Positions 8,860 through 32,758 of a stretch of DNA of 32,883 nt are shown piece after piece. Each line of letters starts with the position of its first letter. Within the stretch, counting starts at the first letter, position 1. The notes beneath the pieces are model-generated. The model was not told the origin of the DNA. It worked only from the letters and a program-made list of their open reading frames with translations, and did no database searches. The stretch spans positions 1 to 32,883 of the IMG/VR virus record IMGVR_UViG_3300035190_000118; one strand, written 5' to 3'. Source of the stretch: a virus. The translations under genes were made by a program, and so were the position numbers.

Positions 8860-8869
8860 TTAACTCAAA

Positions 8870-8901
8870 GATAAACCAGAATAAACGTTTTCTGGTTTAT
8901 C
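8870..8901 (+). terminator. Hairpin after phoH, possible weak terminator
   Basis: An 11-bp perfect inverted repeat (GATAAACCAGA/TCTGGTTTATC) with a 10-nt loop begins 10 nt after the phoH stop. The stem is AT-rich and no long T tract follows on the plus strand, so termination may be weak. It also isolates phoH from the homing endonuclease gene. Confidence 0.5.
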
Positions 8902-8903
8902 TT

Positions 8904-10846: not shown

Positions 10847-11138
10847 TTAATTTATTAACACTATCATCAATATATTCAGCATAACCTTGATAGTAATGCT
10901 CGAATAGCTCTTCAAAAATATTGGCATTTTTGAAGGTATTTTTAACGATTTTGGCTTCGGTTAGGTTCAAAATCACTTGGTTTACAAGCTGTTTGTTATG
11001 CAATCCACGGGTGATGTACACTTGCTCTTCGTACTCAATGTTAGCAGGATCTTTCATATAACCTGCTATTTTTGTCTGTGCAGGATCTTTAGGTTGTCCT
11101 GTGTACTTTGCAATTAAGTAGATGCTTTTATCTGCCAT
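10833..11138 (-). CDS. Unknown protein after clamp-loader gene
   Basis: 101 residues. N-terminal half YLIAKYTGQPKD... EEQVYITRGLHNKQLVNQVILNL; C-terminal half helical and acidic (NIFEELFEHYYQGYAEYIDDSVNKL). Its start is fused to the clamp-loader stop (TAATG). In T4 the small clamp-loader subunit gp62 follows gp44, so position suggests a replication partner, but this protein is about half the gp62 length and no gp62 motif is recognised. Left as unknown. Confidence 0.65.
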   Translation of the reverse strand: MADKSIYLIAKYTGQPKDPAQTKIAGYMKDPANIEYEEQVYITRGLHNKQLVNQVILNLTEAKIVKNTFKNANIFEELFEHYYQGYAEYIDDSVNKLNEGL

Positions 11139-12061
11139 TATTGTGCTACCTGACTTAGTTCAATCATCATTGCGCTGAGGTTAATTTCATGATCTGCAAC
11201 AAGCGGTGCATTAACTGCGGCCTTACGAATAATTAAAATTGCTTCGTCTTGCCCTTCGTCAGTTTTGCTCCATAAACTTAAATTGTTATATGCCCAAGAA
11301 ATAATTTCTTCCATTTCTTCTGGACGAGCTTGTTCACATAACAGTTTACGTGCTTCACGTATCTTACCATTCTTAAACAAATCAATCATAGCAAGTTTGT
11401 AATCACTTGTGCCTGTACCTGTTTCGCTTGGCGCTTTGAGTTTGCTATCGGTACTATTCATCTGTAGTAAATTCAAACACTTGCGTAGGTCTGGATAGGT
11501 TGCTTTGACGTAGCTATCAAGTGTATCTAAGTCAAAGTCTACACCTTCTGTTACTAACACAGTTGCTGCACGTGCTGTAAACTCAGTATGATCAACTTTC
11601 TCGATATGAAAACCCTGACAACGTGAATGCAGTGCTGGGATAATTTTGTGCGGATAGTTACAGGTCATAATAAAACGTGCTGTATCACTGTATGTTTCCA
11701 TAAGTCCACGCAACACTGCCTGCGCACCCGGTGACAAGTAATCAGCTTCATCTAACAACACAATTTTAAACTTACCAAATGGCATTGTACTAACAAATCC
11801 CTCGATACGGGTTCTAATAAAGTCCACACCATTATCACGTGACGCATTGATTTGTAAAATATCATACTCGTCAATGTTTAACGCTGTAATAAGAATCTTT
11901 GCTAAGGTTGTTTTACCAATGCCTGCTGAACCACTGAACAGTAAGTGAGGTATTGCACCTTCCTTAATCCATTGCTTAACTTGTTCACGTTGTGTTTCAT
12001 CACGAAATACATAACCGTCTACGTCTTTAGGACGGTATGCTTCTACCCATAATTGTTTCAT
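11138..12061 (-). CDS. 44: Sliding-clamp loader large subunit (T4 gp44-like AAA+ ATPase)
   Basis: 307 residues, close to T4 gp44 (319). Starts with the RFC-type LWVEAYRPKDVDGYVF (RFC box). Walker A GSAGIGKT is at 44-51 and Walker B LLDEAD at 102-107. Sensor-1 TCN is at 133-135 and the arginine-finger SRC motif at 146-148. The C-terminal helical collar follows from ~200. It loads the phage sliding clamp on DNA for replication and, in T4, for late transcription. Overlaps the gene upstream (ATGA) and downstream (TAATG). Confidence 0.95.
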   Translation of the reverse strand: MKQLWVEAYRPKDVDGYVFRDETQREQVKQWIKEGAIPHLLFSGSAGIGKTTLAKILITALNIDEYDILQINASRDNGVDFIRTRIEGFVSTMPFGKFKIVLLDEADYLSPGAQAVLRGLMETYSDTARFIMTCNYPHKIIPALHSRCQGFHIEKVDHTEFTARAATVLVTEGVDFDLDTLDSYVKATYPDLRKCLNLLQMNSTDSKLKAPSETGTGTSDYKLAMIDLFKNGKIREARKLLCEQARPEEMEEIISWAYNNLSLWSKTDEGQDEAILIIRKAAVNAPLVADHEINLSAMMIELSQVAQ

Positions 12062-12222
12062 TGTTCGCCTTTGGCTGTTGATGGTTTAAAGGGACTATTG
12101 AGAGTTGAAAGTGTGTCAGCAATTCTACGCATTTCTATACTAAGTTTGCATTGTCCGAATGCTTCTTCAACTTGACGTGCTAGGTTATGCTGGTCAATTA
12201 CTACTTGATCTAAGTCGTTCAC
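12058..12222 (-). CDS. Small protein with GTG start before clamp loader (54 aa)
   Basis: Found by hand translation. Reads MNDLDQVVIDQHNLARQVEE, continues as a helical stretch to about residue 42 and ends in a short flexible tail. The GTG start lies within the stop region of the upstream membrane gene and has Shine-Dalgarno GAGGAA 7 nt before. Its TGA overlaps the clamp-loader ATG (ATGA). Exact packing on both sides supports a real gene. Function unknown; expression is coupled to the clamp loader. Confidence 0.7.
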   Translation of the reverse strand: MNDLDQVVIDQHNLARQVEEAFGQCKLSIEMRRIADTLSTLNSPFKPSTAKGEQ

Positions 12223-12377
12223 ACTAATTCCTCTACGATTCCTAATATTTCTGCTAGGATAAACAACACCCCAGCACTTACTAATATATTAGCACATAAA
12301 AAGCCGCCTGCCAAGATACGCAAGCCACTTTTGGCAAAACTTACTACTTGATGTTTCCATGGATCTGGGTGTTGCAT
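12219..12377 (-). CDS. Small single-span membrane protein (52 aa)
   Basis: Found by hand translation. MQHPDPWKHQVVSFAKSGLR is followed by one hydrophobic segment (about 21-48, ILAGGFLCANILVSAGVLFI and onward). The ATG overlaps the GroES-like gene's stop (TAATG) and the stop overlaps the next gene's GTG. No family recognised. A membrane role within the replication/chaperone operon is unknown. Confidence 0.7.
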   Translation of the reverse strand: MQHPDPWKHQVVSFAKSGLRILAGGFLCANILVSAGVLFILAEILGIVEELV

Positions 12378-12733
12378 TATGATAATCCTCTTCCAATAAT
12401 TTCATCTACGGTTGGTGTGTCTCTAACTAACAAAATATCATTGTGATCAATTCTGCGCAGTGTATGTTCGCCATCAGCATCTTCAATCTCAATACCACGT
12501 GTCCAACGACCATGTTTAACTAAAACGTATTGCCCAACTCGAACATCTTTTTGACGATTGCCAATGGCATATACTCGACCCCACCGTGCATGTATACCTT
12601 CTAACTTGCCGTCTGTGTTTTGTATAATAATACCACTAGTAGTAACCCGTTGATCAAAGTTCATATCAGTTACCAAGACGTGATCTTGCAGTGCCCTAAT
12701 CTTGTTTATTTTGTGTGCTTCAAATGCGGCCAT
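12377..12733 (-). CDS. 31: GroES-like co-chaperonin (T4 gp31 type)
   Basis: 118 residues, compared with 111 in T4 gp31 and about 97 in GroES. IRALQDHVLVTDM is the typical first GroES strand. The segment NFDQRVTTSGIIIQN takes the place of the mobile loop that docks on GroEL. The barrel continues (WGRVYAIGNRQKDVRVGQYVLVKHGRWTRG as separate strands) to NDILLVRD. Phage co-chaperonins let host GroEL fold the large capsid protein. A C-terminal ~10-residue extension is present. Shine-Dalgarno AAGGAA. Confidence 0.82.
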   Translation of the reverse strand: MAAFEAHKINKIRALQDHVLVTDMNFDQRVTTSGIIIQNTDGKLEGIHARWGRVYAIGNRQKDVRVGQYVLVKHGRWTRGIEIEDADGEHTLRRIDHNDILLVRDTPTVDEIIGRGLS

Positions 12734-12742
12734 AATATTCCT

Positions 12743-13159
12743 TTAAATTCGTTTAACACCCGGTGCAGTAGTTGATGTTGTTAGCGGAGTTAGTAGTTCT
12801 TGTTTAACTTCAGTTTCACTAGCAACTGCACCAGCAAAACTACCACGCGGTTTAGTGTATTCAGTCGATGATGAAACTACAGGGGTATCAACTGCGGTGG
12901 GAGTAGCAAGTTTAGTTACTGGCCTAGGTGGAGTATCAATTGATGTCGCAACAACATCGTCGTGAGATGCAGTTGGAGTGTTTAATTTATGATATTCCTG
13001 CATTAACTGAGCTCGCGTTTTTAATATTTTGCCACCAGCACCTAACTCGTCTCCACGAGCATTAGTACGCATATTGCCTACTGCAATTACATTTTCATTT
13101 GCTACACGCAGCGAGTCAATATCAACTGCTTTGCCCATTGCTGTTTTATATGTTGCCAT
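12743..13159 (-). CDS. Unknown protein with conserved N-terminal block, Thr/Pro-rich tail
   Basis: 138 residues. The first ~55 (MATYKTAMGKAVDIDSL... VGNMRTNARGDELGAGGKIL) resemble a block I recall from marine T4-like phage proteins of unknown function. The rest is low-complexity T, P, S, A and V with a final GVKRI. It may be a virion or scaffold-associated protein; no domain is assigned. Start with Shine-Dalgarno AGGAG. A late-like box (GTAAATAAG) overlaps the upstream stop about 25 nt away. Confidence 0.6.
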   Translation of the reverse strand: MATYKTAMGKAVDIDSLRVANENVIAVGNMRTNARGDELGAGGKILKTRAQLMQEYHKLNTPTASHDDVVATSIDTPPRPVTKLATPTAVDTPVVSSSTEYTKPRGSFAGAVASETEVKQELLTPLTTSTTAPGVKRI

Positions 13160-13187
13160 ATCTTTCTCCTATTATATGTGTACTTAT

Positions 13188-13700
13188 TTACTTTAAGAAT
13201 TCAGTGATGTCAAGTTGATAGTGCAGTGAGTCAATTTTATGCACGCCTAATAAGAACAATACATAACTTGCTACGCTAGATCCACGTCCTACACCCCAAA
13301 CTAGATTGTTTTTACGCAGTGTGTCTACTAGATATTTCAAGTAACGTAATAGGTTAAACAAATCACGTTCTTGGTATAATAATAACTCTTGTGCTACACG
13401 TTGTAGTTCGTAATCTTCCTTGCACAAACTTAGAATGTAATCTGCAATATCTAATTCTTTATATTCATCGGGCATGCGCCATTTTGCTTGGAAGCGTTGA
13501 TCGAAATTTTCAACACTATCAGCTAAAGTTACGTAGCCTTTTAAATTAGGCATATCTGCATGTAATTCAGCTCGACTTTTGTTAAACTCTTGTGGATTTT
13601 CAACCAAAAACAGGCTTAAATCCAATTCTGGATTCTTATACAGTAAGTCGCACAGTTCATTGCTGTCTGCGAAACTCCTTCCATAAGCATCATATTTCAT
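13188..13700 (-). CDS. DNA polymerase III alpha-subunit-like fragment
   Basis: 170 residues. The C-terminal part, VWGVGRGSSVASYVLFLLGV followed by HKIDSLHYQLDITEFLK, matches the DnaE/PolC palm signature (GxGRGSSxxS, then a LLGIxxIDPLxYxLxFERFLN-like line). The N-terminal ~120 residues are helical with acidic stretches. The catalytic aspartates of the polymerase palm lie beyond this block in DnaE and are absent here, so it cannot be a polymerase by itself. It may bind nucleotide or DNA, or mimic a host polymerase part. It overlaps the preceding stop (TAATG). Confidence 0.7.
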   Translation of the reverse strand: MKYDAYGRSFADSNELCDLLYKNPELDLSLFLVENPQEFNKSRAELHADMPNLKGYVTLADSVENFDQRFQAKWRMPDEYKELDIADYILSLCKEDYELQRVAQELLLYQERDLFNLLRYLKYLVDTLRKNNLVWGVGRGSSVASYVLFLLGVHKIDSLHYQLDITEFLK

Positions 13701-13936
13701 TATCTGATATCAATTTTATCTTTGAATGTTTTGCTATTCTTTTCTAAATCGTCTAGCATTTTTTGATTACGTCGTTGTACTTCCATATCGTAATCGCCCA
13801 TGACCATCTGTATCTGCCCAATCATGTCGCCATGTCCCATGCGATATGCAAACTGCATCCGACTACTTAACTCGGCACGTTTTTTGTGTAATTCATCATC
13901 TGATAAACCCGAAAGGTCTGGTGTAAGTGGATGCAT
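13700..13936 (-). CDS. Conserved small phage protein (MHPLTPDL type)
   Basis: 78 residues. MHPLTPDLSGLSDDELHKKR is followed by a long helix (to ~66) and a KTFKDKIDIR end. I recognise the MHPLTPDL start and the (F)KDxIDI(R/K) end as shared by small proteins of many marine T4-like phages, where function is unknown. Probably a coiled-coil dimer. Start and stop are overlapped with both neighbours (TAATG). Confidence 0.75.
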   Translation of the reverse strand: MHPLTPDLSGLSDDELHKKRAELSSRMQFAYRMGHGDMIGQIQMVMGDYDMEVQRRNQKMLDDLEKNSKTFKDKIDIR

Positions 13937-14370
13937 TATAGGTCTCCGTCTTGTCTATTCTCACTATAGTAGGCATCAAAATTTCCGCCTGGATAGCGTG
14001 ATTGTAGTTTATTTACATTTTCTTGTATTACATCGTTGGGATCTAGGCGCAATGCACGGCATGCATTGACCCAATACCACATGATATCACCTAGTTCGCG
14101 CTTCATATGGAATACGTTTTCATCACTAAGTGGTTTGCCTTGGAATAACATTTTCTTTGGAATTTCACAGAACTCGCCTGACTCTGCCGCTAGCCCTAGA
14201 CACGCTGTAATTAGTAATGGAACGTTGACATCTGGACCGTGTGTTTGTGTTTCGGAGTCATAATTACCATCTAAATCATCTAAACGATTCATAAAAGTAG
14301 TTAAGTCGTTGCTGGGTTTGCTGGTTACTTCTTTTACGAAGTCTGAGTATTTGTTTAAATCGATATGCAT
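13936..14370 (-). CDS. mazG: MazG-like nucleotide pyrophosphohydrolase
   Basis: 144 residues. The all-alpha NTP-PPase signature is visible: CLGLAAESGEFCEIPKK with Glu63/Glu66, and MKRELGDIMWYW with Glu92/Asp95 (the ExxE...ExxD metal-binding set). The family then continues with NVNKLQSRYPGGNF. The enzyme hydrolyses (d)NTPs to monophosphates, and for phages a role in altering host nucleotide or alarmone pools has been proposed. Its Shine-Dalgarno AAGGAG is inside the 3' arm of a 20-bp hairpin, which suggests translational control. Confidence 0.87.
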   Translation of the reverse strand: MHIDLNKYSDFVKEVTSKPSNDLTTFMNRLDDLDGNYDSETQTHGPDVNVPLLITACLGLAAESGEFCEIPKKMLFQGKPLSDENVFHMKRELGDIMWYWVNACRALRLDPNDVIQENVNKLQSRYPGGNFDAYYSENRQDGDL

Positions 14371-14378
14371 AAATGATA

Positions 14379-14423
14379 ACTCCTTGGTAATACTACTAGT
14401 TTATAGTAATATTGCCAAGGAGT
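14379..14423 (-). promoter_or_regulatory. Hairpin sequestering the mazG Shine-Dalgarno
   Basis: Two 20-nt arms (14379-14398 and 14404-14423) pair with a 5-nt loop. Eighteen positions are Watson-Crick, and the other two can be G-U or mismatched depending on strand. On the minus strand the 3' arm ends ACCAAGGAGT, so the AAGGAG of the mazG gene is fully paired. No T tract follows, so a terminator is less likely. The loop region contains TATAAACT, a poor late-promoter-like box. T4 controls genes such as e and I-TevI with this kind of structure. Confidence 0.65.
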
Positions 14424-14440
14424 CAATGGGTTTGGTAGAA

Positions 14441-15373
14441 TTAAGCTATTTTATACCATTTAGTTTCTGCTAAATGATAAAAGTATGACACACTGGTGCC
14501 AGCACTTAACGTAACGTTAGCACTTGGTACTAAAGTTGTACCAACACTTGGATTAACTTTAAATGCTGTAATGGTCTGGGTTGAACTAACTGTAACAACT
14601 TTAGCTTCAACATTGCCTGCTGGTAGAGTTAATGTACCGGTAGCTAATGTACCAGCCGGATTATAAATTACACGCGATACACTAGCACCAACCGTATCAT
14701 TAAAATTAGCAGTAGCAGCACTGTATTGATACCCTGTATCAATTCTTGCACCACCCACTGTTAAATTGCCAGTAATAGCAAAATTACCAGCAATATTATC
14801 ATGACTACGAGTGAAATCATCAATGGTAATTGTAGTACCTGCATTGTATGTTGTAAATTCAAAGACATATGAACCAGCTGTTGGGAATGTAATAGTTTGT
14901 CCCACTGCTCCTATGATATTTGTAAGCCCTACTGAAACAGCACTTGGTAATGTTACAGTATCCGTTGACGGAGTACTAATAACAATTTCAAGTCTTAATT
15001 TAGCATACAATCCGCTAGTAGGCCAATTAGTGAATGCACTAATAGTGAATGGTCCGCCTGTAGTTACTTTTTGATAATGGCCATCTGCAAAACTAATTTC
15101 AACTGAAGTTTGTGTTGCCCAATCTTTGATTGTTTCAACTGTCTTAATTAATTGTGCACCTTTAAGTTGTGCATAATTCATTTCATTATTTAATGTAGTA
15201 CCTGCTAGTCCAGTTTTCAAAATAGCATTGTTTTGTATATCTTCTATCTCTGTCTTAGCAAAGGTTAGGTTGTTTTTAACGTTGGTGAAATTATCACGAA
15301 ATCCCTGCGAGTCATTATCTTGACCGGCAATTGGATAGCTTCCGTTAATGTTATTTGGGTTAATTGATGACAT
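14441..15373 (-). CDS. Tail-fibre/virion structural protein
   Basis: 310 residues. The N-terminus INPNNINGSYPIAGQDNDSQ then GFRDNFTNVKNNL is a block typical of marine T4-like phage fibre or structural proteins. From ~100 onward it is strand-rich with T, G, V and I repeats (for example ITGNLTVGG), and it ends with AGTSVSYFYHLAETKWYKIA. It lies downstream of the two longer fibre genes and has its own late-type box 33 nt before the ATG. Likely a distal fibre or adhesin part. Confidence 0.8.
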   Translation of the reverse strand: MSSINPNNINGSYPIAGQDNDSQGFRDNFTNVKNNLTFAKTEIEDIQNNAILKTGLAGTTLNNEMNYAQLKGAQLIKTVETIKDWATQTSVEISFADGHYQKVTTGGPFTISAFTNWPTSGLYAKLRLEIVISTPSTDTVTLPSAVSVGLTNIIGAVGQTITFPTAGSYVFEFTTYNAGTTITIDDFTRSHDNIAGNFAITGNLTVGGARIDTGYQYSAATANFNDTVGASVSRVIYNPAGTLATGTLTLPAGNVEAKVVTVSSTQTITAFKVNPSVGTTLVPSANVTLSAGTSVSYFYHLAETKWYKIA

Positions 15374-18300
15374 TTAATTAAATACTCCGAGTTTACTAAA
15401 TTTAATGTATTTATCTCCGGCTTCAGGTATAGTATAACTATCTCGATAGCTATAGAAACGTGTACCATTTCCGTCAAATTGCGTAGATAATACTTTTACT
15501 TCTTCTGGTATAATACTGTAATTTGGTATTAAATTACCAGGTTTGATGACCGGATCATAATAGATATTAGTTGCGCCGTAGGTGTAGCCATTTCTTACGT
15601 ATAATTTATTATAGAATGATACTTCTTGTATGAAAGTTAATGTAACCATACCATCAGTAGCGATGTTAATGCGCCATATACCAATACGCTCATTATCTAC
15701 TAATGGGTCGAGATTATTTTCTCTATATCCAGGGACTGCGCTAGCGGCATCCCACCCCAGATCATCTATTAAGGTAGCTGTGGAATTATCATAATCCCAG
15801 GAATCACCGCCCCATACTGTAGCAACATCATTCCAACCCTGGTCGTAATCACCGATATCGTTTTGATCTTGTCTAAATTCTTGACGAGCAAACACTAATG
15901 TTTCACCATCTTTGAACGAATTTATACCATCTAATCCACCAAGACTGATAATAGATGATTTAGCACGATTATTAATACTTTCGTAAGATATAGTCACTGC
16001 ATAATCAACTGTGCCAGTGGCCGCAAACACACTAGATAATCCAGGGTAGCGATCAAAAGTTGTTTCTCTACTAGTAATATATGCGCCAGCAGTAATATCG
16101 TAATTAGCCGTGTATATATTATCAACTTGGTATCTATCAACGGTAAAGTCAATTTCGTTGACATTAAAGTCTTGTTGCGCAAATCTATATGCAATTAAAC
16201 TACTTGCGCCTGGTACAGTATATGCAAGTACCACTGCCCGAGTAAACCCTAGTATAAAACCGTTGGCCTGTCTGCTGGTCATCCAGTCTGGCAGTGCACC
16301 TTTATTCGCATATCCTAATGCTGCCACTGTAACATCTTTCATATTACTAAAAGAATTTGGATATGCAGTAGTATAAGCATTTCCTTCGTAATCATAGTAC
16401 GGCGTGACAATAGCAGGAAATTGTATATCTGCCGGCCCTTGGCCAAATGCATTTGTGTTATCATCGGTTACTTCCAAATACACAACTTCGTATTTGATAT
16501 TAAAATTACTATCTCGAGCAACTGCGGTTTTTACATTACCTAAGGTAATTCGTTTTTCGTAATGATTGGTTGCAACTGCCGCTGCATATTCAGACAGCAA
16601 ACTTGGATTTAATCCTGGCAAAAATAATGTTTTAATATTATTTGCTAGACCAAAAAATGGATCATCGTTACGATATATTAGATTTGGCGGAAATATAGAT
16701 GTGTTGTGCATAATTGTTGTAAATTGCGCACGTTGTTCTTTCGATGGCAGAGCTTTAAGATATAAATCTTCGTAGGGGGTATTATTTCTATTAAGTACAC
16801 GAATAGTAAATGTACGATCCGAAGTGATGCTATTATCATAATCACGAGCAGTAACAGTGAAAGTATATGTAGCATCGAACGTTGTAGTTGCTTCGCCAAG
16901 TATAGTTCCATCCAAGAATGTAGTACCTTGATCTAAACTAAACAATTCAAAACTAACTCTGCCAGATATTAATCCACTAGGAATAAGTTTTAGTCCCTGT
17001 GGTAATCGATGTGCAGATTCTGGTGTCAATGAATATTGTATATTCTTGCCTTTTGTCGATACTGCACTGATAGACAAATCGCTTACACGACCATTTTCAA
17101 TAGTACCTAAATCACCAGGAGTAATCCAATTAATTTTATTATTTAAATCGCCTAAAATAGTTAAGGTGAACAATGCACTAGTTTGATATGCTGGATAATC
17201 TCGTTTGTATACTAGCACTTCAAATAGATAATTAGTTTCATTGGCAGTCAAACTAGGTAAACGACCAGTCAACCATCCAGAATCTATATCCATTGTTATA
17301 CCTTCTGCAATAGCCAACGGACTTTGATCAAATTTTGATTCATCAAATCCAACAGTACCCTCAGTTGATATCAAGCCCAATGTTACTCCGACACTGATTA
17401 CAGATGTAGGTGTTGCTCCAGTACTAACAGAATTAATATATACAATCGCCGTTGCGGCTGCTGAGTCCAATGTAAACACATTTGCACTATTATATACCAT
17501 ACCAACATCGGCTTCGGCTGTGATGTTTGTTGGATGTGCTGGTACACTGGTTGCACCAACTGTGATATTACCAGATCCTGTAGTAAATACGCCCGAAGTA
17601 AATGTAACCGGAATGACCAGTGCCGACGCAACGTTGGCAGTTACAGTAGCAGTTGCGCCACTACTTGTCTGAGTAATTACATCACCCACATTGGCAGTTA
17701 CTCCGACCGGAATTACAGTTCCTGTAAATGAACGAGGATAAACATCTATGCTGGTAGCATTAATTTGTATATTACCCGAGTTAAAAGTAAATGTTCCACC
17801 TGTATAAACTATAGGTATGTCAACTGCTGATACAACATTAGCAGTTACAGTAGCAGTTGCACCACTACTTGTTTGAGTAATTACATCACCTACGTTAGCA
17901 GTAACTAGTCTATCATCGAATGCAGAAGATATAGGGTACGCAGTAATAAAAGTACCATTAATTTTTATATTTCCGACGCCATTAGTAAATATACCTGCGG
18001 TTAATTCAATCGGTACAGTAGATGAGCTTACAACATTTGCACGAACAGTGGCATTTGCGGCACTACCGAATTGTGTAATGAAATCGCCCACGTTTGCTGT
18101 AATAAGTTCATCCGAAACAGCAAGTGTACCTATATTGGTATTACCGCGTATTTCTAAACTACCAACAATAACATTGCCTGCAACTTCTATACTACCTGTT
18201 GTAGTACTAATACTAGATATTGTGGCGTTAGCAGAACTTATTGCCTGTGTGATAAAATTACCAACAGAACCGGTGATTACTGCATTACCAGTTAATCTTA

Positions 18301-19387
18301 ATTTAATATAATTATTTACAGCGGCATCGTACCAGTTTAATTCATCGGGGCTAGTTAAACTTAGTACCTTAATATCATCGCCTGGAGATAACGCAGGTTC
18401 GGTGTTATTAACAGTTGAATTAACACCTACAAATAAATTGCCACCAGTCAAAGTTGAATTAATATAAGGACTCTCCGAGCCAACTATTAATTCTTCATCA
18501 AATTTTCCAGTTTCAGTAGCAGGTAATATGTATTGTAATACATCGCCGTTTCGATCCAATCCAACAATTTGGAATGAAAAATAACTACCTTGACGCTGTG
18601 GTTCTAGTTCAACTTGGGTAGTTACTATAATCGGTTCATGTCGCGCACCAGTATCAATAGTAAGATCATCTCCACCGCTTTCTGTGGTATCTGTTGTGAT
18701 TGTAGTAGCATCTGCCTGAAGTGCATCTTGTGGCACTATTAATATTCTATACGGAGTTGCATCATAGTTAACTCCGTCGAATACTTCTATTGTGAATGTA
18801 AATGCTTTACTAATTGCTATTAGTGAAAAGTCCCATCCAAGTTGGTTCCATGGAGTTTGATCCCATCCTGGATTGCTTCCTGGTCCGGGCCCAACGATTG
18901 GTTCAATATATCCGTAAATTAATCCAGCTGCAGAAATAGTTAAACCAGGCGGCAACTCACCATTACTTTTCCGCCAAATTAAATTCGCACCAGGTGTAGA
19001 TTCGATTGCTTCTAATTGTATATTAACTATAGTACCATCGAAATATATGCCAAGATCAACATCACGAGGTATAATAATCGGCGGAGCAACATTAGATACT
19101 GTAATATTAAATGTTCTATCCGATACTCCATTTGTGGTAGAATTTTTTACTCTAATAGTAAATGTATATGTGACATTTTGATCAGGGCTTCCTAACTCAC
19201 TTATTGGAATACCTTGTAGTTTACCAGTAGGTATAAGTTGTATGCCTAAGGGTAATTTACCCGAAATGTGACTATAAACTAATGTACCACCAGACGCATC
19301 GTATGCATCCAGGTCAAATTCATAGTACTCAGTTTCTGGTACGATTCCTAATTGTCCTGCCGGAGTAATCCACTTTGGTAATGCCAT
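15374..19387 (-). CDS. Giant tail-fibre protein with Ig-like and tandem repeats (1337 aa)
   Basis: At least four putative-Ig (He_PIG/cadherin-like) modules are visible by their G(K/E)LPxGL... G.I.G pattern: near residues 30-100, 120-190, 700-760 and 780-880, each ending in YTFT(I/V)xxxD-like strands. Between them (about 420-620) lie tandem repeats of about 66-68 residues built on ANVGDVITQTSSGATATVTA. The C-terminal ~400 residues are unique, with aromatic and acidic residues (DQGWNDVATVWGGDSWDYDN), and may be the receptor-binding tip. No signal peptide. Flanked by other fibre genes in one late block; Shine-Dalgarno AAGG. Confidence 0.85.
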   Translation of the reverse strand: MALPKWITPAGQLGIVPETEYYEFDLDAYDASGGTLVYSHISGKLPLGIQLIPTGKLQGIPISELGSPDQNVTYTFTIRVKNSTTNGVSDRTFNITVSNVAPPIIIPRDVDLGIYFDGTIVNIQLEAIESTPGANLIWRKSNGELPPGLTISAAGLIYGYIEPIVGPGPGSNPGWDQTPWNQLGWDFSLIAISKAFTFTIEVFDGVNYDATPYRILIVPQDALQADATTITTDTTESGGDDLTIDTGARHEPIIVTTQVELEPQRQGSYFSFQIVGLDRNGDVLQYILPATETGKFDEELIVGSESPYINSTLTGGNLFVGVNSTVNNTEPALSPGDDIKVLSLTSPDELNWYDAAVNNYIKLRLTGNAVITGSVGNFITQAISSANATISSISTTTGSIEVAGNVIVGSLEIRGNTNIGTLAVSDELITANVGDFITQFGSAANATVRANVVSSSTVPIELTAGIFTNGVGNIKINGTFITAYPISSAFDDRLVTANVGDVITQTSSGATATVTANVVSAVDIPIVYTGGTFTFNSGNIQINATSIDVYPRSFTGTVIPVGVTANVGDVITQTSSGATATVTANVASALVIPVTFTSGVFTTGSGNITVGATSVPAHPTNITAEADVGMVYNSANVFTLDSAAATAIVYINSVSTGATPTSVISVGVTLGLISTEGTVGFDESKFDQSPLAIAEGITMDIDSGWLTGRLPSLTANETNYLFEVLVYKRDYPAYQTSALFTLTILGDLNNKINWITPGDLGTIENGRVSDLSISAVSTKGKNIQYSLTPESAHRLPQGLKLIPSGLISGRVSFELFSLDQGTTFLDGTILGEATTTFDATYTFTVTARDYDNSITSDRTFTIRVLNRNNTPYEDLYLKALPSKEQRAQFTTIMHNTSIFPPNLIYRNDDPFFGLANNIKTLFLPGLNPSLLSEYAAAVATNHYEKRITLGNVKTAVARDSNFNIKYEVVYLEVTDDNTNAFGQGPADIQFPAIVTPYYDYEGNAYTTAYPNSFSNMKDVTVAALGYANKGALPDWMTSRQANGFILGFTRAVVLAYTVPGASSLIAYRFAQQDFNVNEIDFTVDRYQVDNIYTANYDITAGAYITSRETTFDRYPGLSSVFAATGTVDYAVTISYESINNRAKSSIISLGGLDGINSFKDGETLVFARQEFRQDQNDIGDYDQGWNDVATVWGGDSWDYDNSTATLIDDLGWDAASAVPGYRENNLDPLVDNERIGIWRINIATDGMVTLTFIQEVSFYNKLYVRNGYTYGATNIYYDPVIKPGNLIPNYSIIPEEVKVLSTQFDGNGTRFYSYRDSYTIPEAGDKYIKFSKLGVFN
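15407..15414 (-). promoter_or_regulatory. T4-type late promoter box
   Basis: ATAAATAC (preceded by G) on the minus strand inside the last codons of the giant fibre gene, 33 nt before the ATG of the 310-residue structural gene. It would give that gene extra late expression. Confidence 0.5.
17631..18103 (-). repeat. Tandem coding repeats in the giant fibre gene
   Basis: A ~71-nt block at 17631-17701 recurs at 17835-17905 (offset 204 nt) with few changes, and again more diverged from 18033 (offset 198 nt). A fourth, weaker copy lies near 18224. Each encodes ANVGDVITQTSSGATATVTA-like sequence, so the period is 66-68 residues. Unequal exchange between copies 1 and 2 could change fibre length. Confidence 0.8.
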
Positions 19388-19395
19388 AATATACC

Positions 19396-21288
19396 TTAAA
19401 TAATCACTGCTTCAATAATACCAACATCCGTTGTGGTCTTATTTTCTAATGCTTTGGCAAATACAGCTTGCCCGTATTTGCCGTCGCGGCCGACGCTCAC
19501 TGCAACGCCTGGAATATTACCTGTGACTAACAAATCACCCTTTCTTGTATATCCTTGTACTTTTACCGGAACACGACCGCGTAATGCCACTGGTTGCCCA
19601 TCTAATGCATCATTCATTAAGTATGCAGGGTTAGTTGATATAACTCCTGCCACCGCAGTATCGGCAAATAATTGAGTAGTTGTAATTTCTTTGTTACCAC
19701 CAAACACTACTACAGTACCGGCTTCGTATTCGGTATCACTTAGATAATTTTCTGCTAAGTCGGCATATTTTGCTGTGGTTGATACACCACTAAATGTAGT
19801 AGCAAATACTGTGGCAAATGTTGTTCCAGCGGCACCTATGTTAATAGTATTGTTTATACTAGCTGCAATTGTACCACTTACTGTTAATCCTGTTAGTGTT
19901 CCTAGTGATGTAATTGCTGATTGCGCCGCTTGTGTTACTGTTAACGCCGACCCACTTACATTACCAGTTACATTACCAGTTACATTACCAATGAATGTCG
20001 GAGCAACTACGTTGCCACCGGCATAGATATTTCCACTTACTCCTGCGCCGCCTGTTACCAGTAATGCTCCAGTTGTAGTTGATGTGCTCACTGACCCACT
20101 AGTAGCAATTAAATTACTACTTGTTCTAATATTACCAGTCACTGCCAATGATACAAGGGTACCAACTGTGGTTAAACTTGATCCAGTTACTGTTGTTGGT
20201 AGTGTTGTGCCTGTAATAGCACTAGCCGCTACTGATCCGGCACTACCGTCGATACTTATACCACTTAATGATTGTACAGCACTTGCACGATTTAATGCAA
20301 TTGCAGTTGTACCAATGTATACAGTTGAATTGCCCATCACTGTACTTGATATAGTACCTATTAAATTGCCTGCTGTTAATACTGTTAAGTTTGCACCACT
20401 TACGTTACCAAAAGTAGCGGACCACCTACCTGTGGTAATTGTACCAACTGTAGCCAATGCACTTGCCGATGTAATGTTATTTTGTGCCGCTGTCTGTAAT
20501 GTACCAGTTAAATTTGTAAAATAACCATGGTTAAATGTTGCGCCACTAGCACCGATATTACCAGTGCCACTAGTGCCGCCGTTGGTAATTGCAGTTGGTG
20601 TAGGTGATTTAATTTCGATATTACCCAGCACCAACGTATCATATTTGGCATTAGTCAATGACATTTGTGTGGTAATTGTAGCATTTGCTACATTACTAAA
20701 TAAATTCCATTTACCGTCAGCATCATCGCGCACAAAGCCAGTTAACTGAGTTAAATTTCCAACGCCACCGGTAAATCTTCCAAAAAAGCCAATGTCAAAG
20801 TTATACGGGAATGATGGAATAGTATCAAAAAATACTAGTGGGCTTGTTGTTACTAATGTATCTACAAATGTTTGAAGTGTGTTGGCTACATATAAATTAC
20901 CCTGTATATATACATCTTTAGCAATACCAACACCACCATCAATTACTAATGCACCGCTGTTAAATTGTAATGATTGAGTAGTATTTGTAATACGTGTGAT
21001 ACCACTAATATTTGCACCAGTTAATGTGCCAAGTGATGTAATTTGTGATTGTGTTGGAGTTTGAATAAGACCGTATAGATTTGTAGTATTAATATTACCA
21101 GCAGTTACATTTCCTGTTACTTCGATAGCACCGCTAGCACTAATATTTCCAGCACTAAATCCAACATCTGCAATATTAGCAAACGCATCATTTACTTTAG
21201 TAAATGCTGTACGTAAATCATCCCCAGTACCGTCATTGGCTACTGTTCCGGTATTAATTGCAATAAATTGTGATGTAGTTATGGTCAT
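19396..21288 (-). CDS. Tail-fibre protein with repeat shaft and conserved C-terminal domain (630 aa)
   Basis: N-terminus FIAINTGTVANDGTGDDLRT then AFTKVNDAFANI is typical of marine T4-like fibre proteins. The shaft (~40-500) is strand-rich with recurring SLGTLTGxxxSG and VTGN units. The C-terminal ~120 residues begin KYADLAENYLSDTEYEAGTV, with FGGNKEIT and GRVPVKVQG after it. This is a domain often found at the end of phage fibres, perhaps a trimerisation or self-processing module (known family pattern, activity not shown). Shine-Dalgarno is weak, but a late-type box lies 27 nt upstream of the ATG. Confidence 0.85.
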   Translation of the reverse strand: MTITTSQFIAINTGTVANDGTGDDLRTAFTKVNDAFANIADVGFSAGNISASGAIEVTGNVTAGNINTTNLYGLIQTPTQSQITSLGTLTGANISGITRITNTTQSLQFNSGALVIDGGVGIAKDVYIQGNLYVANTLQTFVDTLVTTSPLVFFDTIPSFPYNFDIGFFGRFTGGVGNLTQLTGFVRDDADGKWNLFSNVANATITTQMSLTNAKYDTLVLGNIEIKSPTPTAITNGGTSGTGNIGASGATFNHGYFTNLTGTLQTAAQNNITSASALATVGTITTGRWSATFGNVSGANLTVLTAGNLIGTISSTVMGNSTVYIGTTAIALNRASAVQSLSGISIDGSAGSVAASAITGTTLPTTVTGSSLTTVGTLVSLAVTGNIRTSSNLIATSGSVSTSTTTGALLVTGGAGVSGNIYAGGNVVAPTFIGNVTGNVTGNVSGSALTVTQAAQSAITSLGTLTGLTVSGTIAASINNTINIGAAGTTFATVFATTFSGVSTTAKYADLAENYLSDTEYEAGTVVVFGGNKEITTTQLFADTAVAGVISTNPAYLMNDALDGQPVALRGRVPVKVQGYTRKGDLLVTGNIPGVAVSVGRDGKYGQAVFAKALENKTTTDVGIIEAVII

Positions 21289-21314: not shown

Positions 21315-21322
21315 GTATTTAT
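21315..21322 (-). promoter_or_regulatory. T4-type late promoter for the fibre block
   Basis: ATAAATAC preceded by C on the minus strand (CATAAATA core), 27 nt before the ATG at 21288 and after the terminator of the iscA gene. The position is ideal for late transcription of the three fibre genes. Confidence 0.6.
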
Positions 21323-21357
21323 GTTAAAACTATTATTGTTTAATTTGTCTAGCCAAT

Positions 21358-27668: not shown

Positions 27669-27692
27669 AAAAAGCCCGTATACGGGCTTTTT
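27669..27692. terminator. Bidirectional intrinsic terminator
   Basis: A perfect 24-nt palindrome (AAAAAGCCCGTA/TACGGGCTTTTT) lies between convergent genes, with A/T runs on both sides, so it can stop transcription from the lone plus-strand gene and from the winged-helix gene. Confidence 0.92.
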
Positions 27693-31014: not shown

Positions 31015-31161
31015 CTAAATTATGACAGTTTTGGCTCTGAGAAAGTGTATAGGCGGTACTGGTACACTAGAACTTAAATAAACGGATAGCGTATGTTCTA
31101 TATCTTCTGGACTGGTTTTATCTTCGAATATATCACTTCTAAAATAGCGTTTATCATTTAT
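31015..31161 (-). pseudogene. Open frame without a start codon between halogenase and ligase
   Basis: A 48-codon frame (NDKRYFRSDIFEDKTSPEDI, EHTLSVYLSSSVPVPPIHFL, RAKTVII) runs from the halogenase stop to just before the ligase promoter. It has no ATG, GTG or TTG. The only overlapping ATG (31157) is in another phase and stops after 19 codons. The composition looks protein-like. It may be the tail of a lost gene or use a rare ATA start. Confidence 0.4.
31136..31157. repeat. 22-nt direct repeat, copy 2 (at halogenase stop)
   Basis: Identical to the ligase start region at 30933-30954. Its first bases ATGA overlap the halogenase TGA, exactly as a coupled downstream gene would. Confidence 0.9.
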
Positions 31162-32758
31162 ATATTGTGCTTTTTAGAAATGCATAATGTGTAGGTAATG
31201 CATCAACAACTTTAACAGTTTGTGCTCTGTGTTCGCGCCATGTGTTCCACGTATTAGTAGCCATGTCTGCAGATTCGCTGTACTGATTATTATTAAAATC
31301 TACTCTACTATTATCAATAACGTTATGACCCATGCCTGCAATGATATATGCTATTCCGCCCATGTCGTTACCTACTACACGTGACCTATGAAGTCTATAT
31401 GCAATGTCATTGTATGAACCCAATACACCAGCTTTAAAATCATACATCTGTTGTGAGTACGTAGTTTCTTCACTAACATGATTCCAGTATGCACTATCAT
31501 TACGCATAGACAGCGCATAATGCTGACTAATAAAATCTTTAAATCCTGTAATTTGTTCACGGAATGCAAAATTAAATGCATCAACATCAAACCGCGTAAC
31601 TCTGCCATTGCGCATTTTAAGTAGATTTACCATCTTAATGATACATTCATGTGTAAGCATCAAACCAGTTGATTCAAGTGGCTCGATGAATCCATTTGAT
31701 AGACCTATGCCGATAACATTCTTTTCCCAGGTGCGTTCATGTACACCATGTTTAATCGCAATGTGTCGCACTTCCATTGCATCAACCCGTGCAATATCTT
31801 GTACTGTCATTCTATTAGATTTTAAATGATTTCTAAATTGTTCTTCTGCTTGTTCTTTTGTTGCAAACTTACTCGAGTAAACATAACCTGTGCCAAGTCT
31901 ATCCCACAAAGGAATATTCCAGACCCATCCTGCTTCAATTGCTGTACAACTTGTAACACATTCCATTTCTTTATCTTTATCGATATATGGAATAACACCT
32001 GCTACTGCGCTATCATTTAATAATGTATCGTGGAATGATATAAATGGAACTTTTAATGTTTGTTCGAGTAACAATGATCTAAAACCCGTACAGTCAATAA
32101 ACAAATCTGCTGTTAGCTCGCCACTCTTTTCAGTAACGATTGTGTCAATATGTCCTTTTGCATCTAAGTTTGCAGTTAATACGTTATCTAAAATATGTGT
32201 CATGCCCGCTGGCAAACATAAATGGTCACGTAGATAATTACCAAATAGAGTTGCATCCATATGATATGCAGTGTCGGATTTAAAATCAAATCCACGTATT
32301 AAATGATCCTCATTCTTTGTCATTTTATTTGCATCAGTCATTATAACCTGATCGTGATAAAATTCTGCAAATGAATATGGATTAATGTTTGGCAAAGTTG
32401 CGGCCCCAATAAACCATTCCATTAGACCTCTAGGCTTATCAGTAAAGTCATATCTACCAAACGGATAATGAAACACTTGTGGCTTTTCTGTTGGGTTTTC
32501 TCTAAAGTCGATAAACTTAATTGATGTCTTGTATGTTGCGTTACAATGCTTCATCCAATCTTCATCTTTAAGACCAAGATAGTGAAGGAATTCGTTTATC
32601 TGTCCGATTGTACTTTCGCCTACTCCGATTGTTGGGATATTAGGCGACTCGATTAGTGTAAGTTTAACGTGTGGTAATTGTTTTGATATAGCAGCCGCTG
32701 TCATCCATCCCGAACTGCCACCACCTACAATAGTTATACGCTCGATTTTGTTTCTCAT
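31154..32758 (-). CDS. Flavin-dependent halogenase (tryptophan halogenase family)
   Basis: 534 residues, the usual length. FAD-binding GGGSSGWMTAA at 12-22, then PTIGVGEST (42-50). The catalytic lysine is probably Lys77 in CNATYKTSIKF. The halogenase hallmark WxWxIP is present as WVWNIP (278-283). The conserved glutamate segment GFIEPLESTGL is at 356-366. It would chlorinate or brominate tryptophan or another aromatic using FADH2 from a reductase that is not seen here. Marine T4-like phages carry related genes, role unknown. Start overlaps the upstream gene's stop (ATGA). Confidence 0.9.
   Translation of the reverse strand: MRNKIERITIVGGGSSGWMTAAAISKQLPHVKLTLIESPNIPTIGVGESTIGQINEFLHYLGLKDEDWMKHCNATYKTSIKFIDFRENPTEKPQVFHYPFGRYDFTDKPRGLMEWFIGAATLPNINPYSFAEFYHDQVIMTDANKMTKNEDHLIRGFDFKSDTAYHMDATLFGNYLRDHLCLPAGMTHILDNVLTANLDAKGHIDTIVTEKSGELTADLFIDCTGFRSLLLEQTLKVPFISFHDTLLNDSAVAGVIPYIDKDKEMECVTSCTAIEAGWVWNIPLWDRLGTGYVYSSKFATKEQAEEQFRNHLKSNRMTVQDIARVDAMEVRHIAIKHGVHERTWEKNVIGIGLSNGFIEPLESTGLMLTHECIIKMVNLLKMRNGRVTRFDVDAFNFAFREQITGFKDFISQHYALSMRNDSAYWNHVSEETTYSQQMYDFKAGVLGSYNDIAYRLHRSRVVGNDMGGIAYIIAGMGHNVIDNSRVDFNNNQYSESADMATNTWNTWREHRAQTVKVVDALPTHYAFLKSTIYK

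Follow-up and report, generated by a model that had tools for sequence, protein, structure and literature searches.

The junction between a tail-fibre operon and mazG in the viral record IMGVR_UViG_3300035190_000118 raises the question of why the ribosome-binding site of mazG should lie buried in a stable hairpin directly ahead of the start codon. The whole stretch of DNA analysed, 32,883 nucleotides, is referred to here as the window, and the features discussed are collected in Table 1. In the reading that we favour, to which we assign a probability of roughly 0.7, a sigma70-type early promoter and a hairpin sequestering the Shine-Dalgarno sequence (SD) share about 55 bp at the boundary where a late tail-fibre operon gives way to an early replication operon whose first gene is mazG. 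The likely function of such an element would be to insulate the early replication operon against late transcription running on from the tail-fibre genes.

Table 1. Position of the hairpin, the embedded promoter and the neighbouring genes in the window
Feature	Position	Strand	Remarks
mazG, 144 aa	13936..14370	-	First gene of replication-type operon; Pfam PF03819 4e-9, phrog_229 4e-47
Remainder of operon: 78-aa ORF, DNA polymerase III alpha-like (170 aa), 138-aa ORF, GroES-like, gp44-like clamp loader	11138..13936	-	
mazG Shine-Dalgarno AAGGAG	14380..14385	-	Sequence; GGAG invariant in relatives
Hairpin 3' arm	14379..14398	-	Contains the SD
Predicted transcription start	14389..14393	-	Inside the 3' arm; placed from the -10 position and the sigma70 spacing rule
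-10 hexamer TAAACT	14398..14403	-	17-nt spacer; TATAAT, TATACT or TATAGT in relatives
Hairpin 5' arm	14404..14423	-	Carries anti-SD CTCCTT; predicted to be missing from the short transcript
-35 hexamer TTGACT	14421..14426	-	Shares bases with the anti-SD (GACTCC, pairing with GGAGTT); TTGAC kept in all 23 relatives
Three tail-fibre/adhesin-like genes	14441-15373, 15374-19387, 19396-21288 (span 14441..21288)	-	Would read through into mazG
T4-type late promoter CATAAATA	21316..21323	-	Before the tail operon; same place in two related genomes

The inverted repeat consists of two arms of 20 nt each, 90% complementary and separated by a 5-nt loop; it is a single-copy element in the 32,883-base record, and the genes flanking it are all encoded on the minus strand. 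On the mRNA (minus) strand, the 121-nt region was predicted to fold with an energy of -29.2 kcal/mol (z = -5.33), and none of 200 shuffled sequences was equally stable, which confirms the nearly perfect 20-nt hairpin with a 5-nt loop described in the initial annotation. The same annotation placed AAGGAG in the stem, 9 nt ahead of the mazG start, and this also holds, as the motif is separated from the ATG at 14370 by the 9-nt spacer TTATCATTT and has a predicted accessibility of 0.00 in the long RNA. The predicted accessibility of the SD rises to 0.68-0.83, varying with the assumed 5' end, when the RNA begins within the 3' arm. Nearly all junction members likewise show an accessibility of 0.00 in the long RNA according to the folding predictions, and the values for the short RNA of the members other than the window are just 0.1-0.7, which counts against the favoured reading. 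An Rfam search of the window gave no match above the gathering score.

The order tail genes, mazG, 78-aa ORF, polymerase III alpha-like gene, 138-aa ORF, GroES-like gene and gp44 recurs in relatives. At the loci with a hairpin, mazG is found 54-78 nt downstream of a tail-fibre-like gene ('NPNNIDGTYPVAGQDNDSQGFRDNFTN', of which a 505-aa version matches tail fibre PHROGs); at L073 the upstream gene is another structural gene, and at L026 and L070 the contig ends before it. Where the hairpin is absent, mazG is coupled to other genes at distances of -11 to +28 nt. At two loci (L135 and L185) the junction has no mazG, and the element is followed instead by the next gene, the 78-aa ORF, so that the element tracks the junction and not the gene. 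The tail gene gave no match against phage records. Among the cyanophage mazG matches listed, identity reached at most 55-56% and, where the neighbour was annotated, mazG overlaps gp41; the phage records and these listed matches yielded no laboratory phage in which the junction occurs.

Conservation of the element was investigated in 80 mazG loci retrieved by protein similarity, that is, independently of the hairpin (81 loci including the window). A promoter of the form TTGAC-N18-TAnnnT was present upstream of mazG at 28 of the 81 loci, and 26 of these 28 also harbour a strong hairpin that absorbs the SD, with energies of about -20 to -27 kcal/mol. The other two (L024 and L076) have kept the promoter with only a weak hairpin, which again counts against the favoured reading. 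The mazG alignment comprises 23 distinct but related sequences, eight of which came from the listed matches of a pattern scan whose pattern fixes TTGACTCC and GGAGT and leaves the inner pairs free. In all 23, TTGAC, TAnAnT at exactly 17-nt spacing, GGAG and one C pairing with the SD are invariant.

The compensatory changes between the arms that the initial annotation had named as a check were found. In the mazG alignment 89.4% of the cells pair (79.9 in shuffled alignments), and 22 cells carry double changes against 8.3 in the shuffles, a value reached in none of 500. Pairing falls to 34-55% when the register of the partner is slid, and the cells of the outer stem left unpaired derive mostly from the register-shifted L070 and L073. 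Compensatory changes were observed at three inner pairs, in 4, 7 and 6 sequences respectively, and the closest relatives (94-95% MazG identity) differ from the window by a G-C to A-U swap. Covariation and folding prediction both point to sequestration of the SD in the helix of the long transcript. Judged by these alignments, the hairpin structure is under selection, with arms that drift between three fixed boxes yet stay complementary. The hairpin, the position of the SD, the fixed-spacing promoter, the covariation and the junction context can all be read from the sequences themselves.

The promoter of the window, TTGACT-17-TAAACT, is a modest match (9 of 12 positions) and would be unremarkable if taken alone; the case for it rests on the relatives, which present TTGACT-17-TATAAT, TATACT or TATAGT. 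Given the invariant TTGAC and the 17-nt spacing to TAnAnT, the putative embedded promoter is of the sigma70 type. With the -35 and -10 boxes fixed inside the hairpin in 23 elements, its placement would give a short transcript without the 5' arm, which supports, at the level of prediction, the earlier proposal that a promoter sits inside the hairpin and that the short transcript loses this arm. The pairing of the final ACT of the -35 box with the SD region suggests why this box reads TTGACT instead of TTGACA. Strong TTGACA-17-TATAAT promoters precede other genes of the window, and most of the sigma70 promoters with GGAG elsewhere in the window and in two related genomes lack a comparable hairpin. 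One further strong hairpin lies at 141660 in a related phage (G001:C1, L209), a second hidden-SD promoter (TTGACTTCTAC...GTAGGAGTT) that precedes a 175-aa ORF and follows a small secreted protein and not a tail gene.

With regard to timing, NATAAATA represents the late promoter class in this group and is strongly enriched ahead of genes in a related 219-kb record, in which ten of the 13 TATAAATA sites lie before genes against 0.35 expected. That record encodes homologues of gp55 (the late sigma factor), gp43, gp44, gp47 and gp20 of a T4-like cyanophage. In S-PM2, mazG has been described under a putative early promoter (PMC2297514). The presence of CATAAATA before the tail operon, the gp55 homologue in the related record and the S-PM2 arrangement lead us to infer that the tail genes are late and mazG early.

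Under the favoured reading, polymerases arriving from the tail genes would copy the whole element, and the resulting RNA would fold and lock the SD of mazG. Polymerases initiating at the embedded promoter would start inside the 3' arm, about 7 nt past the -10 box, and because of this predicted start the mRNA proper to mazG would carry a leader of about 21 nt without the 5' arm and with the SD open. MazG, and probably also what is coupled to it, would consequently be produced only from transcripts that begin at the early promoter, late read-through mRNA yielding none. Promoter use, start site, early timing and the translational block are the inferred parts of this scheme. The stop codon of the tail gene lies 14 nt before the -35 box, so terminating ribosomes should not open the stem. 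Just 5' of the -35 box, a conserved ACCAAA (window 14426-14440; present in many junction elements) is able to base-pair with a TGGT close to where the tail gene ends. The exonuclease family described below and one G001 element follow genes that are not obviously late, which counts against the favoured reading.

An unlikely alternative, although the strongest of those considered, is that the hairpin is primarily an intrinsic terminator, ending the late transcript of the tail genes and enclosing the early promoter, and that the hiding of the SD is a by-product of compactness. Like such a terminator, the element has a stable stem, followed in many relatives by a U-tract: TTTT follows the stem in 13 of 20 junction elements, T makes up 82% of the spacers between SD and start in these 20 elements against 28% in 109 ordinary SD spacers from these phages, and the exonuclease members carry TTTTCTTTT. 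The transcript from the embedded promoter would escape termination as well, since it lacks the 5' arm. Unlike a terminator, the element harbours a promoter and an SD inside its stem, and no U-tract is present in the window, whose stem is followed by the spacer given above, or in its closest relatives (TTCTCATTT). Neither is there a U-tract in L070, L073 or the dNMP-kinase element L330, in which the stem on the SD is kept; the hidden SD is thus the more widely kept feature. A terminator scan of the region did not list the hairpin. Termination, which the initial annotation had regarded as fatal to its proposal, accordingly lacks support as the sole function in the window and is retained as a co-function in relatives, many of whose U-tracts may add termination of the read-through RNA.

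It is very unlikely that the stem serves as an RNase III processing site separating tail mRNA from mazG mRNA: the stem of the window is long and nearly perfect, as such a site would be, but those of L026, L046 and L105 are shorter and interrupted, and the embedded promoter makes processing unnecessary. The initial annotation had raised the possibility that TATAAACT, found at 14405..14398 on the minus strand, acts as a T4-type late promoter from which mazG would be released late. This sequence resembles TATAAATA and is located in the loop, but the object conserved there is the -10 hexamer (14403..14398); the loops of relatives read TATATACT, TATAATTG, TATAGTTA or TATACTGA and none reads TATAAATA, TTGAC and its spacing are invariant instead, and the late promoters of the group belong to the class described above, one of them preceding the upstream tail operon. 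A late promoter in the loop was therefore rejected on conservation, and late release of mazG seems scarcely credible. Equally hard to credit is an operator role for the inverted repeat, with a repressor or activator binding the DNA to control the mazG promoter, and this was rejected on covariation. A palindrome over a promoter is the usual operator shape, but the arms of relatives have diverged in sequence and still pair, a pattern incompatible with recognition by a sequence-specific protein, and the symmetry always includes the SD.

Hidden-SD leader hairpins have been described for T4 e, soc, 49 and I-TevI, which are late genes on early or middle transcripts (PMC2988022, PMC3014915), and one review reports that in T4 every gene controlled through a hidden ribosome site is a late gene present on early and middle transcripts (PMC2988022). 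The mazG element resembles these leaders in that the long RNA is predicted to fold and hide the SD and that a promoter at the hairpin would give a short mRNA without the 5' arm. The leaders of T4 use late promoters (TATAAATA) and in this way delay the late genes concerned, whereas the promoter of the mazG element is of the sigma70 type and not of the late type. In T4 a late gene is carried on an early or middle transcript, whereas here an early-type gene would be carried on a late transcript behind CATAAATA, a comparison drawn from sequence only. Timing is thus probably reversed relative to T4 gene e, with late read-through silenced and the early transcript translated. The known T4 lysozyme trick would then operate with its timing reversed, and the mechanism of the initial annotation would be right in principle with the promoter class and the timing wrong. 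In the IS10/Tn10 transposase gene, a sigma70 promoter lies in the inverted-repeat region and read-through RNA hides the SD, while the gene's own RNA does not; that arrangement belongs to the terminus of a mobile element, whereas the mazG element occupies a junction between phage operons. A search of the literature on SD-hiding read-through transcripts and on overlapping terminators and promoters returned the same arrangement in no title or abstract. The element appears to do the opposite of its T4 counterparts, stopping an early gene from being remade from late read-through RNA. It would offer a compact, testable design for the temporal insulation of neighbouring phage operons, one that sequence searches can locate in other phages, and a ready-made part for promoter insulation in synthetic constructs.

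The same design also precedes, among the pattern-scan matches listed, at least a phrog_255-type exonuclease, a 53-aa membrane protein, a DsbA-like regulator and a dNMP kinase, the kinase gene (L330) lying immediately downstream of a head-tail adaptor gene. For the exonuclease and small-membrane-protein elements, all of which come from the pattern scan and whose aligned sequences are related to each other, 280 of the 320 possible inner pairs are formed; swapping the 3' arms among sequences leaves 194 +/- 10. Most exonuclease genes of the close relatives are either preceded by the element or come immediately after the small membrane-protein gene, which carries the element itself in other contigs. 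This 53-aa protein (MKITPQTAGLGTTGLTGIALM...GIGQENRKG) has no PHROG match, and in many contigs (L128, L136 and others) its gene is the immediate upstream neighbour of the exonuclease gene. Of the hairpin-bearing exonuclease genes (L223-L295), most have TTG as start codon, preceded by a TTTTCTTTT or TTTTATTTT tract, and those coupled to the small membrane-protein gene have ATG; the U-tract has perhaps been extended into the start codon, or a weak start adds repression. Two further pattern groups ('LKSGE' and clamp loader) were not counted, as they showed little pairing beyond the GGAG/CTCC required by the pattern.

We tentatively extend the reading, at somewhat less than even odds, to a general insulated early promoter of aquatic T4-like and other phages, in which the -35 box, the -10 box and the SD are nested in one hairpin of about 55 bp. 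Read-through RNA would be terminated (in the U-tract forms) and untranslatable, and the embedded promoter would escape both. Such an element would mark late-to-early operon boundaries and would have arisen or spread before several unrelated genes, namely mazG and those for the exonuclease, the small membrane protein and the dNMP kinase.

Three other features of the window were observed. A perfect palindrome at 27669-27692 (AAAAAGCCCGTATACGGGCTTTTT) is likely a bidirectional terminator between convergent genes, and a 14-bp perfect inverted repeat with 8-nt spacing at 8868-8903, just after phoH, is probably a terminator. Finally, the 534-aa ORF at 31154-32758 has, by eye, the look of a tryptophan-halogenase-type flavoprotein, which would be unusual cargo for a T4-like phage.
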